Source of the DNA: Balneolaceae bacterium | GTDB lineage: Bacteria; Bacteroidota; Rhodothermia; Balneolales; Balneolaceae | Reading direction: 5' to 3' | NCBI GenBank assembly: GCA_007135335.1 | Contig: SLJB01000103.1 | Location: 1 to 34,759, forward strand | DNA length: 34,759 nucleotides | In this document: positions 24,008 through 32,388 of the stretch, piece after piece | Layout: each line of letters starts with the position of its first letter | Position numbering within the stretch: position 1 is the stretch's first letter | The notes under the pieces: model-generated | The model's database searches: none | What the model was told of the DNA's origin: nothing | The model's input: only the letters and a program-made list of their open reading frames with translations | Made by a program: the position numbers and the translations under genes

Positions 24008-26641
24008 TTATGAGTTTAAAGCTGCCTGCGCTGCAGAAAGCCTTGCTACCGGCACTCTGAATGGTGAACAGGATACGTAATCAAGCCCCATTTTGTAGCA
24101 GAAAGTTACGCTACGGGGTTCGCCTCCGTGTTCCCCGCATATACCAACTTTAAGGGTTGGTTTTTCCATACGGCCATTTTTTGCTGCCATCTCTACGAGT
24201 TGCCCTACTCCTTCAATATCGAGCACCTGGAATGGATCTTCCTGGAGAATACCCTCTTTCAGATATTCACCCAAAAACTTACCGGCATCATCGCGGCTGT
24301 AACCAAATGTCATCTGGGTCAGGTCATTGGTTCCAAATGAGAAGAACTCAGCATCTTTTGCAATTTGGGAAGCCACGAGTGCAGCTCTTGGTATCTCAAT
24401 CATCGTGCCGACACGATATCGGACTTTTTTACCGGTTTCATCAAACACAACGGCTGCTGTCTTATCGATCACCATTTTTTGTGCACGAAATTCCTGAGGT
24501 GTTCCAATCAGTGGAATCATGATTTCCGGTGTTACATCCATCTTCTCTTTCTTAAGTTCGATGGCTGCTTCCAGTATTGCCCTGGTCTGCATCTCAGTTA
24601 TTTCGGGATAGGTAATTCCAAGGCGGCACCCTCTGTGCCCAAGCATGGGATTGAACTCCTTAAGTGAGCGTACTTTGCGTTCGAATAGTTTCCGGCTAAT
24701 TCCAAGCTCATCAGCTACGGCATCGATTTCATCTTTATCGTGCGGTAAAAATTCATGAAGAGGGGGATCAAGGAGACGAATAGTAACAGGGAGTCCTTTC
24801 ATCGCTTTAAAAATGTCGATAAAATCCTGCCTCTGATAAGGGAGCAGCTGTTCGAGTGCGTCCTTGCGGGCTTCATAATGATCGGAGATAATCATTCGCC
24901 TGATGGCTTTAATTCTCTCTTCTCCAAAAAACATGTGCTCTGTACGGCATAGACCGATTCCTTCAGCACCAAATTCGCGTGCTCTTTTGGCATCTTCTGG
25001 AGTGTCGGCATTGGTGCGTACATTCATGTCGCGAAATTCATCAACCCAGTCCATAAACAGCTTGTAGTCTGCTTGTAATTTGGGTTTAATAACTTCCTTC
25101 TTTCCTGCAATTACCGTACCTCGTGCTCCATCTATCGAGATCCAGTCACCTTCGTTAATGGTAACTTTTCCATTGGTAAAGTTGCCATTTTCATAATCAA
25201 TGATAATTTCATCACAGCCGGCAACACACGGTTTGCCCCATCCGCGGGCAACTACGGCTGCGTGGCTGGTCATCCCGCCCCGCGAGGTGAGAATACCCTG
25301 AGCGGCCGACATACCGCCTACATCTTCAGGGCTGGTTTCGATACGAACCAGTATAACTGATTCACCATTTTGTGCGGCCTCTTCGGCTTTATCTGATTCA
25401 AAGACTACTTTTCCAACTGCGGCTCCGGGTGATGCCGGCAGCCCAACACCAAGCACTGAATCCGGATCAACGGTTTTTGCATCAATTTGAGGATGGAGCA
25501 GCTGATCGAGGTGGGTCGGTTCCACATGGGTTTTTACAGCTGTCCGTTTTTCGATCAGCCCTTCTTTAACCATATCCGTTGCTATTTTAATAGCTGCGTG
25601 GCCGGTTCGTTTCCCGCTTCGGGTTTGAAGGATGTAGAGTGTACCTTTTTGAATGGTAAACTCAATATCTTGCATGTTACCGTAATGCTTCTCGAGTTTT
25701 CGGCCCCACTCTTCGAGTTCTTCATAATCTTTAGGCATCAGCTTTTTAAGTTCGCTGATATCATTTGGGGTTCTGATTCCGGCAACCACATCTTCGCCCT
25801 GGGCATTAATCAGAAATTCACCATATAATTTATTTTCTCCTGTAGATGGATTTCTGGTGAAACAGACCCCGGTTGCACAGTCATCACCCATATTGCCATA
25901 CACCATGGCCTGTACGTTTACTGCGGTTCCAAGCAGGCCGGTTATATGATTAATCCTGCGATACTTATTTGCCCTGTCGCTCTCCCATGATTCAAAAACG
26001 GCATTAATGGCCCACTCAAGCTGCTCAAACGGATCACCGGGAAACATATAGCCTGTAGCTTTTCTGTAAACAGCTTTATAGCGGTTCACAAGTTCTTTGA
26101 GGTCTTTTGTGGTCAGCTCAGTATCCTCTTTTACATTTTTTGCCTTTTTAAGAGATTCTATTGCTTCTTCAAAAAGTTCGTGGGGAATGCCCATCACAAC
26201 ATTGCCAAACATATCGATAAACCGCCGATAACTGTCGTATGCAAAGCGTTCATTGTTGGTGTGTTCAGCAAGAGCTTCAACGGTATTATCATTCAAGCCG
26301 AGATTTAATACGGTATCCATCATACCGGGCATCGAAACAGCAGCACCGGATCGTACCGAGAGCAGAAGGGGGTGTTTTGAGTCTCCGAATTGAGTCTCCA
26401 TGATTTCTTCAATAAATTTTATACCCTCTTTCACCTGGTGTTTCAGTCCAAGCGGCCAGTTGTGTTCATGTGTTGAGTAATAGTGGCAGGCATTCGTGGA
26501 GATGGTAAAACCGGCAGGAACCGGCAGCCCTATGGTTGACATTTCTGCGAGATTGGCTCCTTTTCCGCCAAGTAGTTGTTTCATCGACCGATCGCCATCG
26601 GCAGTTCCGCTTCCAAATGTGTAAACATGTTTTCCCTTCAT
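24008..26641 (-). CDS. ppdK: Pyruvate, phosphate dikinase
   Basis: [83 protein letters not shown]. The ORF opens at 26707; [12 protein letters not shown] at 26641 is a likelier start. Confidence 0.97.
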
Positions 26642-27021
26642 CTCTTCCTCGTTTTTTGTTTTTATAAGATTACAGACGTTGCCTTTCAAATTCACAGTAG
26701 AATTCAACTCTTCTGATAGTGTGAATTTCTTGCCGTGAGTATAGTTGTAAGCTCATTAGTAAAACTTTGAAAGACCGTCATCAGTGAATTTGAGACAGAA
26801 TCTATTTATTCGAATATCATCATGTAAGCATCAAAAAAAGCACTAACAAGAATCAACTCAATTAATTTTAAACCTACAATCAGGAAAATCCCCACTGTTT
26901 TGTCGGGTTCGGCCTTAGCATCAGATTTTGAAAGCGTGATTTTAAAACTCTCCGTTTGAATCCAATCGCGGCCATGCCTATTTTCGGTCTGCAAATAAAT
27001 CATAGCCCTTATTGTGTTTCT

Positions 27022-28395
27022 ATGAAATTTAAAATGCCACACACACTTACGCTGCTCTTCTTTTTGATGGTGGCCGCACTCGCAGCAACCTGGATTATTC
27101 CGCAGGGAGCTTTTCAAACCGAAGTGGTTAATGGTAGGGAAGTGGTGGTTCCGGGTACTTTCGAAGTAGCCGAAGATGGCGAATTCCTCAGCCCAATATC
27201 CCTGTTTACGGCAATACCAAGGGCGTTTGCGGCAGCGCAGGATATCATATTTTTCCTCTTTATTATTGGCGGTGTGATGGCAGTTATCCGCAAAACCGGC
27301 GCCATTGATGCACTGCTTGGCAGGCTGCTTGAAAAACTTGGAGGCCGGCCCGGAACACTCATATTTATCGTGGTATTTGTTTTTGCGTTAGCTTCGAGTG
27401 CGGTTGGGGCATCAGCGGAGTATATACCTTTTGTGCTCATACTCGTAGCACTGTGCCGCAGTATGAATATGGATACAATGACGGCTGTGGGGATTATCGT
27501 GGCCGGATATGGAATTGGGTACGGAGCGGCAGCTTTTAATCAATATACAGTTGTAGTGGCACAGGGAGTGGCAGGCTTGCCAACATACTCCGGTATGGAA
27601 GTGCGCCTCGCTATGATGGTGCCTTTTGTGATGATCGGTGCACATCACGTGTGGAATTACTCACGAAAGGTTCAGGCGGAACCTTCAAAAAGCTTAATGT
27701 TCGGGATTGAACCGCCTGATGCCGGAGCCCCGCCGAAAGAGTACCCGGCTTTATCACTGACCCATATCTCAATTTTGATCTCATTTATTGTTGCACTGGG
27801 TGTGGCGGTGTATGGAATCAGATATAATGGCTGGTATCTCACAGAGTTGGGGGCTGCCTTTTTAATACTGGGAATTGTTGCTGCAATCATTGGCAGAATT
27901 GGCCCCAGCCTCATGGCAAAGGAGTTTGTGATAGGCGCGAGGGAATTAACTGAAACGGCCCTGCTTGTAGGTGTTGCAAGAGGTATTGCATTGATTATGG
28001 AAGATGGTGAAATACTTCACACCATCGTAAACGCTCTGTCTGTTCCACTCGGCATGGTAGGCCCGGAGCTTTCTGCGGTGGGTATGATGATTATGCAAAC
28101 CATACTCAATCTGTTTGTGCCCTCCGGCAGCGGGCAGGCATTTGTTACGATGCCGCTTATGGCTCCGCTGAGTGATCTCCTCGGGGTGTCAAGACAAATT
28201 GCCGTACAGGCATTTCTCTTTGGTGATGGTTTTGCCAATATGATTGTACCCACAAACGCAGTACTGATGGGCATTCTCGGAATGGCAGGTGTTCCGTACG
28301 ATCGCTGGTTCAGATTTTGTTTCCCGCTCTTATTGAAACTGCTGGCATTTGCTGCGCTCTGTATGGTGGGGATGGTAGTTTTTGGATTCTCCTGA
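27022..28395 (+). CDS. YfcC family (C4-dicarboxylate/arginine-ornithine carrier-like) membrane transporter
   Basis: MKFKMPHTLTLLFFLMVAALAATWIIPQGAF, multiple TMs, GASAEYIPFVLILVALCRSM, ILNLFVPSGSGQAFVTMPLMAPLSDLLGVSRQ. Start ATG 27022 preferred to 26956. Confidence 0.88.
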   Translation: MKFKMPHTLTLLFFLMVAALAATWIIPQGAFQTEVVNGREVVVPGTFEVAEDGEFLSPISLFTAIPRAFAAAQDIIFFLFIIGGVMAVIRKTGAIDALLGRLLEKLGGRPGTLIFIVVFVFALASSAVGASAEYIPFVLILVALCRSMNMDTMTAVGIIVAGYGIGYGAAAFNQYTVVVAQGVAGLPTYSGMEVRLAMMVPFVMIGAHHVWNYSRKVQAEPSKSLMFGIEPPDAGAPPKEYPALSLTHISILISFIVALGVAVYGIRYNGWYLTELGAAFLILGIVAAIIGRIGPSLMAKEFVIGARELTETALLVGVARGIALIMEDGEILHTIVNALSVPLGMVGPELSAVGMMIMQTILNLFVPSGSGQAFVTMPLMAPLSDLLGVSRQIAVQAFLFGDGFANMIVPTNAVLMGILGMAGVPYDRWFRFCFPLLLKLLAFAALCMVGMVVFGFS

Positions 28396-29613
28396 TCACG
28401 GGCTGCTTTCAAAATGGTTCACATCTTCAGGATATCGCAGGAAAACAATTTCAGGATTTCTGATGAGAGGATGTATTCGCTTGATCTCATGATAAAAAGC
28501 AGGGTTTTCGATAAAAGCTGATGATTTGAACAGAAGATCAAGATAAAGCCTGTCACTGTCTGTACGATCCATCGGATCGAGGATGTCATCAAAATCGGCT
28601 GTTTGCATGAGGCTGATTAAATAGAGAACACCGTCTTCTATCGTTCCTCCAAACAGAGATCTTCTTTGTTGCAGATCTGCATTCAGATGCTCTGCATACA
28701 TCAAAAGCTCAAGCCACCCGCTTATATTGTAGATGCTGTAATGTTCCGGTCTTGGTCTGCGTGTTTCATATCGTTGACGGCCATTTCTTGTGATCTGCCG
28801 ATTTATACGTTTGGCTGAAACTGTTTCAAGGTGGAGTTTTGCAAAATCAGTTTGATCTAAATAGACCGCTATGGTAACAACCTGCACATCATACCACGTG
28901 CCATGATTGTTTTTCGATTCCATCTCTTTTAACCCAAATTCACTATTTCGCAGCCAGTTCAGATAATGTGTAAACCAATTTTGTATTGGTTTTTCAATGG
29001 CATCATTCCAAAGACCGGACTCTTCAAGCAACGGGATGGATTGAATCACACGTACGAGCCACCATGTGTCGATGACTCCGTAAGATCTGCCGGTGTCAAC
29101 TCCGCGAATCATCTGTGCATGCTCAAGATGAGGAAGCATGGCCGTGTTCGGATCAATGAACCAGGTGTACAGCTGGTTCATTGCGTGTTCAGCATAGATC
29201 TCATTCCCGGTTGATTTGTAAGCAAGAGCGAGTACTTCAGTCCGTTTAGCCATTTCAATCATTGCCGGAAGATCTGATCTGTCAGTTCTGGTATCAGGAT
29301 TTACATGCCCATCCACTCTGATGTAGGGAAGCCCGTCAGAACCGGCCGGATCAGGCCACCAGTAGCATGCCATGCTTGCGTATGTTCCGGGGTGAAATCC
29401 GAGGTATTGATTTTTTTCATTGTTTATCGAGACTGGTTTTTTTGTTGCAAGGCTGTCAGCATTTTTGATAAGATTTTCGAAAGCTCCGGTAATAACAAAC
29501 CGGTTTGTTTGATCAGAGCTATAATCAGAAGAGGATTCAAAATCAGTACATTGAAAAGAGAAGAGCGCAATCCCCGCGATGAAAAAGCAGAAAAGCTGTA
29601 CGTTTTTATACAT
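28396..29613 (-). CDS. Alginate lyase-like family lipoprotein
   Basis: Lipobox-like LFSFQC; YWWPDPAGSDGLPYIRVDGHVNPDT, NWLRNSEFGLKEMESKNNHGTWYDVQ motif. Confidence 0.85.
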   Translation of the reverse strand: MYKNVQLFCFFIAGIALFSFQCTDFESSSDYSSDQTNRFVITGAFENLIKNADSLATKKPVSINNEKNQYLGFHPGTYASMACYWWPDPAGSDGLPYIRVDGHVNPDTRTDRSDLPAMIEMAKRTEVLALAYKSTGNEIYAEHAMNQLYTWFIDPNTAMLPHLEHAQMIRGVDTGRSYGVIDTWWLVRVIQSIPLLEESGLWNDAIEKPIQNWFTHYLNWLRNSEFGLKEMESKNNHGTWYDVQVVTIAVYLDQTDFAKLHLETVSAKRINRQITRNGRQRYETRRPRPEHYSIYNISGWLELLMYAEHLNADLQQRRSLFGGTIEDGVLYLISLMQTADFDDILDPMDRTDSDRLYLDLLFKSSAFIENPAFYHEIKRIHPLIRNPEIVFLRYPEDVNHFESSP

Positions 29614-29687
29614 GGTTAAACAGTTGCACTATAGAGAGTTTGTATAGTATGAAGATAGTGAATGATGAATCACTTGATACTATTATC

Positions 29688-29711
29688 AAACGATTATTGC
29701 CTTTTTACGTC
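29688..29711 (+). promoter_or_regulatory. Candidate ECF-type promoter of the Spy/ECF cluster
   Basis: AAAC-N16-CGTC at 29688-29691 and 29708-29711, about 45 bp upstream of the first gene. Confidence 0.4.
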
Positions 29712-29756
29712 TAATCCAATAGAACAGAACCATAGATTTAACAACAGGTGAAAGCC

Positions 29757-30479
29757 ATGAAAAAAATAGTAATTTTAGTAATATTTGCATTCTTTATAAA
29801 AATGGATGGAATGGCCCAGCCGGGTCAGCAGTCCGGTGTATGGATGTCGGGTGGTCAGCACTTCATTGTGCAGCATGGAGAAGCTCTTCAGTTAACTGAT
29901 GATCAAAAGAAAGAGATCTTAGCTGTATCGATTGAAGGCCGGACTGAGCGCAGGTTTACTCAACAGCAAAACCGACGGGATGGCAGGGGCGCTGTAAGAG
30001 GTAATCGTCAAATTAATCAGCGTGAGGCAGGGGTTCGGGGCAGCGGCCGTGGCCTTTACGATGAGGGAAGGTTCGAATACAGAGCAGAAATGCAGCAAAA
30101 ACTGAACGAAATTTTGACAGCTGAGCAGCGTGAAAAGCTGGATGCCATCAGAACTGAACGCATCAACAGTATGGACGAAATTCGTACATTACGGCATGAG
30201 GTTATGATAGAAAAAGCAGGACTGGAAGGCGAGAAAGCCGCCAGGGTAAAAGAACTGCTCGATAATCATGCAACAGGCAGACCTGCTTGGGCCGGCGCTA
30301 CAGACAGAGAAGAAATGCTTCAGCTGCGACGCGAAAGACGGGAAGAGATGACAGATATTCAAAACGAACTCAAACAACTGCTTACGGCAGCAGAGTATGA
30401 GAGGTTACAATCGTTTATGATGCAGGGACAGCCTGTGAATTCAAACAGAAACAGAGCTCCCGGCTTCAGAAACAGGTAA
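29757..30479 (+). CDS. Secreted Spy/CpxP-like LTxxQ helical protein
   Basis: Signal peptide; LTDDQKKEIL, LTAEQREKLDAI, LTAAEYERLQSF motifs; charged helices. The ORF track opens at 29748. Confidence 0.65.
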   Translation: MKKIVILVIFAFFIKMDGMAQPGQQSGVWMSGGQHFIVQHGEALQLTDDQKKEILAVSIEGRTERRFTQQQNRRDGRGAVRGNRQINQREAGVRGSGRGLYDEGRFEYRAEMQQKLNEILTAEQREKLDAIRTERINSMDEIRTLRHEVMIEKAGLEGEKAARVKELLDNHATGRPAWAGATDREEMLQLRRERREEMTDIQNELKQLLTAAEYERLQSFMMQGQPVNSNRNRAPGFRNR

Positions 30480-30514
30480 GCAGAAATAATGCAGAGGAAC
30501 GCGGTGAAAGTGTG

Positions 30515-31027
30515 ATGGATAAAGACATCAGGAAAAAATTCCAACAAGAGATACCGAATCTTTATCCGCGTCTTCACCGTGCACTCTCTGCATATCTGTC
30601 CGGCTCTGCACTTGACCCCGAAGATATTTTACAAGAGGCATTTTTGAAAGCATACAAAAATATCGGCCGATTTCAGGGGAATTCAACCCTCTACACGTGG
30701 CTCTACTCAATTGCGAGGAATATCTGTATTGATGAGTTCAGAAAACAGAAAAAGGAGAGCGGAAGAAGTTCAGTGCCGGTAGAGGAGCACCGGATTGAGT
30801 CTGATGAGTTTAAACATCGTGATGAACGTGATGATATTTTAGAACTCAGAAAAGCGATATCGGAACTTCCTGAGTTGCTGAGAACCATAGTGATCATGAA
30901 ATCGGTGGACGGATTAAGTTATCCTGAAATTGCAGAAGTAACCGGAATAAATGAGCAAACCGTAAAAAACAGAATGTTCCGGGCTCGTAAAGAGCTCGCT
31001 CAATTAATGAAAAATTACAGCATGTGA
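30515..31027 (+). CDS. ECF subfamily RNA polymerase sigma factor
   Basis: DPEDILQEAFLKAYKNIGRFQGNSTLYTWLYSIARNICIDEFRK (region 2), LSYPEIAEVTGINEQTVKNRMFRARKEL (region 4). Confidence 0.95.
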   Translation: MDKDIRKKFQQEIPNLYPRLHRALSAYLSGSALDPEDILQEAFLKAYKNIGRFQGNSTLYTWLYSIARNICIDEFRKQKKESGRSSVPVEEHRIESDEFKHRDERDDILELRKAISELPELLRTIVIMKSVDGLSYPEIAEVTGINEQTVKNRMFRARKELAQLMKNYSM

Positions 31028-31485
31028 TGGAACTGAAACGACTTCAATTGGAAAGAAAAATTATTGATGCTGCAGACGGAGCGTTAACGTCGGAGGAGAT
31101 GCGGCAGCTGAAAGCTGAGTTACAGGATTATCCTGATCTTCTCTCGGATTTTCATGACATCATGAAACAGCCGGATTTATCTGCACTTTACGGATCAGCA
31201 GATGAAAAAAGTAATTTCAAAAACCAGATTTCTAATATTCAACACGCAATTAATCAATATGAATTCCAAAACAAGAGCTTTGAAGAGGTTTCACTTATTT
31301 GGTTCAGGAAATACGCGATTGCAGCATCTATAGCTGTGCTGGCAGTTACATCTGTGTTCAGAATAGAATCAGTTTCTGAACATCAAACAGACAGTGAGTA
31401 TTTGATCAGCGAAATTTTTTACCCCAATCTTGAAAGTGAAGCAGACGATTATATGATCTATCTGGAAGAATTATCAACTCAATAA
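31027..31485 (+). CDS. Single-pass putative anti-sigma factor
   Basis: TGATG overlap with the ECF sigma stop; cytoplasmic helical N-terminus, one TM (FRKYAIAASIAVLAVTSVF), short periplasmic tail; no HxxxCxxC motif. Confidence 0.7.
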   Translation: MELKRLQLERKIIDAADGALTSEEMRQLKAELQDYPDLLSDFHDIMKQPDLSALYGSADEKSNFKNQISNIQHAINQYEFQNKSFEEVSLIWFRKYAIAASIAVLAVTSVFRIESVSEHQTDSEYLISEIFYPNLESEADDYMIYLEELSTQ

Positions 31486-31495
31486 TCCATAAAGA

Positions 31496-31969
31496 ATGAA
31501 TACAAAACAAAAAGCAGTAGTGGCATATTTCGTGATTTTTCTGGTTGGATTGATAACCGGGTTGTTGATTAAAGACCAGGTTATTCCGGGTACAGATACC
31601 GGTCAGATTGAAATAGCTGAACGGGAAAGAGGCGAGCGGCCGGGCTGGATGAACCGCCAGCGAGGTGAAAGGCCTGAACGAGCTGTGGTCAGAAGAAATT
31701 TATCACGTCAATTGGATCTGGAGGGTGATCAGGCGGAAGCTTTTATGGAGAGGCTCAGTGAGTATCATACAGAAATACGGGGTATTATTCGCGAGCTGCG
31801 AGAGGATGAGAGAGAAGCAGTAGCCGAAAAGTACAAAGCTTTCAGAGAAGAACTGGCAGAACTGTTAAATGACGAACAACTCAAGAAACTTGACGGAATA
31901 GCTCACCCGGATTCCATTCGATCTGCCGGAGCACAAAGAATGAGATCATCGGGCCGGCCGGGATTGTAA
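31496..31969 (+). CDS. Membrane-anchored Spy/CnrX-like periplasmic helical protein
   Basis: N-terminal TM (AVVAYFVIFLVGLITGLLI), periplasmic charged helices, LNDEQLKKLDGI motif. Confidence 0.65.
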   Translation: MNTKQKAVVAYFVIFLVGLITGLLIKDQVIPGTDTGQIEIAERERGERPGWMNRQRGERPERAVVRRNLSRQLDLEGDQAEAFMERLSEYHTEIRGIIRELREDEREAVAEKYKAFREELAELLNDEQLKKLDGIAHPDSIRSAGAQRMRSSGRPGL

Positions 31970-32010: not shown

Positions 32011-32388
32011 TTATGCAACAGCATTAGCAGGCATGAAATTATGAAGAGCACCTACCAGATCTGACTTTGAAACCGGTTTTTGTAAGAGACCGGAATTCAG
32101 AATTGTTTGAATTTCACTGAATAGGTCAGAATCATTCAAAGCAGTTATAAAAATTACAGGCACTTCAAATCTTTCCCTGATTTTTTTCACTGTTTGAACA
32201 CCGTTCATCTCACCTTTCAGATAAATATCCATTAAGATCAGATCAGGAGTATACTTGTCAACTTCGCTCAGTGCTTCATCACCGGACCTGCATACGGCAG
32301 ATACGCCGTAATTCTCACTTTCCAGAATCTTTTTGAGTACTGTAGATTGAATAAAACAGTCCTCTACGATTAATACCTGGTTATTCAC
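32011..32388 (-). CDS. Receiver-only response regulator
   Basis: VLIVEDC, DLILMDIYLKGEMNGVQTVKKI, PVIFITAL, LQKPVS; no output domain. Confidence 0.93.
   Translation of the reverse strand: MNNQVLIVEDCFIQSTVLKKILESENYGVSAVCRSGDEALSEVDKYTPDLILMDIYLKGEMNGVQTVKKIRERFEVPVIFITALNDSDLFSEIQTILNSGLLQKPVSKSDLVGALHNFMPANAVA

Follow-up and report, generated by a model that had tools for sequence, protein, structure and literature searches.

The window, which is the whole stretch of DNA that was analysed, comprises 34,759 nt of contig SLJB01000103.1 from a Balneolaceae bacterium (assembly GCA_007135335.1). An initial annotation had described in it four consecutive same-strand genes for a secreted LTxxQ protein, an ECF sigma factor, an anti-sigma-like protein and an anchored Spy-like protein. 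Inspection of the ORFs located all four, co-directional and tightly spaced, behind a promoter-like element, and the features of the locus are as follows:

29686-31969, + strand: promoter-like element plus the four co-directional genes (ORF inspection)
29686-29714, + strand: ECF-type promoter, with the -35 element TCAAAC at 29686-29691 and the -10 element CGTCTAA at 29708-29714, 42 nt before the first ATG
29757-30479, + strand: gene 1, soluble secreted Spy-family (LTxxQ) protein (signal peptide, conserved A-Q cleavage site, LTxxQ boxes)
30515-31027, + strand: gene 2, ECF sigma factor (Pfam Sigma70_r2 6e-17, Sigma70_r4_2 6e-20), with an alternative GTG start at 30512
31027-31485, + strand: gene 3, anti-sigma factor (TGATG overlap with the sigma stop, one base in common; one transmembrane segment, TM; family profile)
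31496-31969, + strand: gene 4, membrane-anchored short Spy-like protein (TM by hydropathy, family relationship by hhalign, alignment)

A search with the sigma factor matched 42 of 59 related genomes at E <= 1e-25. In the complete loci, defined as those where all four genes were found (n=28), the order Spy, sigma, anti-sigma, anchored Spy was kept on one strand without exception (28/28), the median intergenic gaps being 35, -4 and 10.5 nt. The flanking genes varied from locus to locus while the four-gene order stayed constant, and the conservation of gene order that had been proposed as a check is thus borne out. Three loci were incomplete: L056 is truncated by the end of its contig, L058 lacks recognisable genes 1 and 4, and in L052 gene 1 was missed by the single-sequence search, but in the genome of this locus (G037, L306) the same promoter precedes a Spy-like gene. 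Another genus of the same family (G030, L164) has the four genes in the same plan, and its sigma factor is diverged. When Metal_resist loci were fetched from 99 genomes of the phylum (n=30), 21 had an ECF gene inside flanks of about 1.5 kb and many of the Metal_resist proteins carried an N-terminal hydrophobic anchor, so that the sigma/anti-sigma/Spy arrangement extends beyond this genus. One genus in another family of the phylum (L089, L099, L101, L105 and genome G209) displayed two Metal_resist matches in tandem near an ECF gene, the best-scoring of them having a hydrophobic anchor at the N-terminus; this amounts to a parallel arrangement of two Spy genes.

As to the surroundings in the window, a single-domain response regulator (VLIVEDCxIQSTVxKK...; 32011-32388, - strand) lies convergently and directly downstream of the operon; it is also found in several close relatives (L030, L031, L034, L035 and L041) and is absent from the others. 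On the other side, and by sequence impression, are a secreted alginate-lyase-like lipoprotein (28396-29613, - strand), a YfcC-like transporter (26956-28395, + strand) and a pyruvate phosphate dikinase (24008-26707, - strand), none of which adjoins the module in most relatives.

Concerning the regulatory pair, the best NCBIfam match of the sigma factor was the GFO_1088/PG0214 family, with 107.9 bits against a cut-off of 130, and its family profile matched the RpoE/SigW/SigH structures at about 1e-30 and CnrH at 4e-16. The partner encoded by gene 3 had been described as TGATG-coupled, with a single TM and without a zinc motif, and sequence inspection agrees. It consists of a cytoplasmic N-terminal domain devoid of zinc ligands, one TM at about residues 98-116 and, in the periplasm, an acidic tail (about 36 aa) that ends in ...DDYMIYLEELSTQ. 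Across the family this tail measures 34-57 aa and bears a net charge of -6 to -13 in 28/28 members, and within the genus it finishes in a conserved YVxYLDE-like segment. Pfam and PDB profile searches with the gene 3 family gave no convincing match, nor any anti-sigma chain of the PDB, CnrY included, and the zf-HC2 family, considered as a relative of the domain, was not found in 21 related genomes. Outside the order, the gene 3 profile matched proteins of other families of the phylum at E values of 9e-10 to 5e-6. Since an ECF gene stood beside the match in all eight of these loci, two of the matches carrying RskA_C and one FecR, the comparison speaks for an anti-sigma domain of the RskA/FecR type, which in this case has no zinc ligands. 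Together with the missing CnrY match, the RskA/FecR matches point away from the class II CnrY type. In Bacteroidetes, a class I anti-sigma partner is recognised in the vicinity of only 6% of the ECF sigma factors (PMC7406223).

Gene 1 has significant profile similarity to Spy/CpxP (LTXXQ/Spy family). The window protein scored 22.3 bits against PF07813 (cut-off 24.3), a family that matched 22 of the 27 gene 1 family members at E<=0.1. In a PDB search the gene 1 family profile matched Spy of E. coli at 1.3e-10 and gave a weak match to CpxP. Two Spy-like units appear to be arranged in tandem, at about residues 36-140 and 141-225. The C-terminal half gave hhalign values of 75% to the first half and 87% to the gene 4 family, against 0.2% for a control pairing, so that it looks like a second Spy unit. 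Within the CpxP/Spy/ZraP group (LTXXQ, Metal_resist), the kinship of gene 1 with Spy is clear, and its seemingly doubled architecture is the difference.

Gene 4 is a more distant relative of these proteins. Its product has an N-terminal TM (about residues 7-25), in which G18 and G22 are conserved, and a helical periplasmic domain with two LTxxQ-like boxes and a C-terminal HPDSVR motif that is conserved in the genus. Taken alone it was weakly Spy-like (PF13801, E 0.0019, 18.8 bits, below the cut-off of 29.2), and only 4 of 28 family members matched the Pfam LTXXQ/Metal_resist families at E<=0.1. In hhalign, however, the family profile reached 97% with the LTxxQ family and 94% and 93% with the Metal_resist families, versus 1.3% with the anti-sigma family used as a control. 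Aligned with Metal_resist proteins, gene 4 misses about 28 residues between its two boxes, and it can thus be regarded as a shortened, and in addition anchored, Spy relative. A direct PDB profile search placed Spy at E 0.39; the other matches obtained in this way (a cGMP kinase coiled coil and engrailed) look like chance coiled-coil similarities and were discarded. The Spy-like nature proposed in the initial annotation is supported at the level of profiles, both for gene 1 (Spy at 1.3e-10) and for the gene 4 family; Foldseek found no usable match for low-confidence AlphaFold (AF2) models built from four sequences (pLDDT 66 and 62), and this was counted neither for nor against it. It could be argued that the genes are chance neighbours and the helical similarity misleading, because charged helical proteins can resemble each other and gene 4 alone stays under the Pfam threshold. 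Against this stand 28 conserved loci, a common promoter and profile matches whose control was clean. The conserved gene order already contradicts this explanation, and we consider it extremely improbable.

The promoter of the window, TCAAACGATTATTGCCTTTTTACGTCTAA at 29686-29714, reads TCAAAC-N16-CGTCTAA. Spaced-word enumeration upstream of gene 1, with shuffled regions as control, recovered CAAAC-N16-CGTCT in 19 of the 21 regions examined at genus level (maximum of 2-3 in the shuffles), and in another family of the order AAC-N16-CGTCTAA occupies the same place. ECF promoters typically present AAC at -35 and CGTC at -10. As the conserved element has this shape, autoregulation is implied, and the module is predicted to be transcribed as one operon under the control of its own sigma factor. 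In the genome from which the window comes, the sequence AAC-N16-CGTCTAA occurs exactly at four sites in total:

Site 1, contig C80 (the window): before gene 1 of the module
Site 2, contig C84: 167 nt before a gene for an HlyD-type adaptor, followed by an AcrB-type pump
Site 3, contig C228: 114 nt before a gene for an HlyD adaptor, followed by an AcrB-type pump
Site 4, end of contig C224: the TolC-family gene expected from relatives begins contig C200, and by comparison with them the site probably precedes it

The same association was observed across the genus. In 28 genomes, 105 distinct sites were classified, of which 80 were intergenic, 17 preceded gene 1 and 39 preceded adaptor or TolC genes, that is, 39 of the 88 non-module sites. 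With a wrong spacing (N20), the genus yielded 30 classified sites, 26 of them intragenic, and 0/29 before efflux genes. Genomes of the same family without an orthologous module had 1/40 sites before an efflux gene. Fisher tests gave 3e-7 against these module-less relatives and 1.5e-6 against N20, values that treat the sites as independent and are too strong because sites in related genomes are not. Although the search required only AAC, all 39 efflux sites carried AAAC (background 23/64, p 1.7e-12), and a longer consensus, ATCAAACnnT + CGTCTAA, is common to the module and efflux sites. Module-bearing genomes of another family had 5 of 25 non-module sites before TolC or adaptor genes. No exact efflux site was present in five module-bearing genomes (G003, G012, G021, G022 and G024). 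Certain further intergenic sites, such as those in front of a prs-like gene, L123 and L131, look like chance occurrences or other promoters and were excluded from the predicted regulon. In three species (L152, L153 and L154, in G015, G004 and G011), two copies of AAAC-N16-CGTCTAA lie 37 nt apart before a TolC + HlyD-adaptor operon, an unusual tandem ECF-type promoter.

The efflux promoters could also be the targets of another ECF sigma factor with overlapping specificity, the operon then regulating mainly itself. The genome has 18 matches to the module sigma factor, so it encodes many ECF factors, and G025 (85% complete) harbors four efflux sites with no module detected. On the other hand, the long consensus common to both classes of sites and the near absence of the efflux association from same-family genomes without the module argue against this reading, and we deem it unlikely.

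Two known systems are, by analogy, the nearest mechanistic models. In CnrYXH of Cupriavidus metallidurans, the sigma factor is released from the membrane CnrYX complex and drives cnrYXH and cnrCBAT (PMC4803752). As there, the genes for an ECF sigma factor, an anti-sigma factor with a single TM and a Spy-type protein anchored in the membrane (the sensor in Cnr) lie together here, and control of the own operon plus RND pumps, a property of CnrH, is predicted from the promoter sites. There are also differences. The Cnr order is cnrY-cnrX-cnrH, and that of the present operon is Spy, sigma, anti-sigma, anchored Spy in 28/28 loci; CnrY belongs to class II and gene 3 has an RskA/FecR-related domain; CnrX has His/Met ligands, whereas no metal site is apparent here; and the present operon has an extra secreted tandem Spy protein and several dispersed pump targets. 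Thus, the resemblance to CnrYXH that had been proposed is strengthened by the conserved order, the ECF-type promoter and its recurrence before RND operons, but the evidence supports an analogy and does not support membership of the Cnr family, given the order, the anti-sigma type, the lack of a clear metal site and the additional soluble Spy protein. The second model, BaeSR of E. coli, has a core regulon of spy, mdtA and acrD (PMC3160322), an output logic of Spy chaperone and RND pumps like the one predicted here, although it is a two-component system and not an ECF sigma/anti-sigma pair.

The Cnr comparison bears on the signal. In a true CnrX-type sensor, gene 4 would bind Ni, Co, Cu or Zn and release the sigma factor for metal-exporting RND pumps, and both the predicted RND targets and the Metal_resist-type similarity of gene 4 would be in keeping with this. 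Its composition gives no clear sign of it. Sequence inspection found no Cys in either Spy-like protein; the periplasmic part of gene 4 has 1-7 His and 1-7 Met, which are scattered, and the only His that appears conserved at the genus level is that of the C-terminal HPDS motif. This is in line with the earlier remark that the Spy-like proteins lack Cys and are His-poor, so that metal sensing is not obvious. On this composition metal sensing by gene 4 is unlikely, and a complete metal-responsive circuit of the Cnr kind seems to us quite improbable.

We believe, with somewhat more confidence than doubt, that the four genes form one autoregulated envelope-stress operon that drives a Spy chaperone and RND/TolC efflux, with the anchored Spy-like protein as the gate. 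At rest, the ECF sigma factor would be held at the inner membrane by the anti-sigma factor, and the anchored Spy-like protein, sitting beside the latter and probably on its acidic periplasmic tail, would keep the holding state. Periplasmic damage, either misfolded protein or a toxic amphiphile, would occupy the Spy-like protein or otherwise upset the pair and free the sigma factor, which would then transcribe TCAAAC-N16-CGTCTAA promoters. From its own operon it would yield additional tandem-Spy chaperone for secretion and additional brake, and elsewhere it would switch on the RND efflux adaptor/pump and TolC operons. Envelope damage would in this way probably be converted into the production of chaperone and efflux proteins. 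The computation supports the conservation of the operon, the sigma, anti-sigma and Spy-family identities, the common promoter and the efflux genes as predicted targets; we infer the gating of the anti-sigma factor by gene 4, the identity of the signal and the direct recognition of the promoters by the module sigma factor. A sharper version, which we put forward tentatively, is that the tethered, shortened Spy-type chaperone is itself the direct sensor that holds the acidic tail of the zinc-less anti-sigma factor, its client load setting the production of Spy and RND pumps, as a metal-independent ECF counterpart of Bae/Cpx. Electrostatic docking of the CpxP type on that tail was considered and found no support, as the net charge of the periplasmic part of gene 4 (-11 to +2) is not basic and a simple charge match is not seen.

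The main competitor is that both Spy-like proteins are outputs only, one free and one tethered, and that it is the anti-sigma factor that senses the stress, for instance by having its acidic periplasmic tail proteolysed as in RseA. This is a serious possibility, though in our opinion a doubtful one. The secreted gene 1 protein is clearly Spy-like, and the Spy gene of the closest published relative of the operon, cirYZ-spy of Phocaeicola vulgatus, lies downstream of the anti-sigma gene, its product being described as a chaperone that is induced (PMC13114119). In contrast, the position of gene 4 behind the anti-sigma gene in 28/28 loci (median gap 10.5 nt), its TM with conserved glycines and the recurrence in the phylum of anchored Metal_resist proteins near ECF genes all fit a regulator, without being a proof of it.

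Coming back to the gated operon that we favor, sigma/anti-sigma/spy operons are already known: P. vulgatus carries cirYZ-spy and a second such locus, and CirY activates itself and spy (PMC13114119, 2026). As in cirYZ-spy, a single operon in a member of the Bacteroidota combines an ECF sigma factor, an anti-sigma factor and a Spy-like gene; here, however, two Spy-like genes flank the sigma/anti-sigma pair, the downstream one being short and predicted to be membrane-anchored. A search of the open-licence literature found no description of the double-Spy bracketing, the shortened anchored Spy, the tandem secreted Spy, the short zinc-less anti-sigma factor or the RND/TolC regulon. With its candidate sensor, its short anti-sigma factor devoid of zinc ligands, its conserved promoter and its predicted targets (Spy chaperone, RND pumps and TolC), the operon lends itself to direct tests of a chaperone-as-sensor mechanism and of ECF-controlled efflux in this group.

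Finally, the spaced element recurs in genera without an orthologous module (L288, L291 and L292, in G030, G085 and G086, as well as L256, L268, L270 and L290). The genes behind it encode an ABC-permease-like protein (MF[KE]NYLKTAFR...FKRHKSS) and a secreted family that starts approximately with MRKxxxxxLLLC; they may form the regulon of a related sigma factor.
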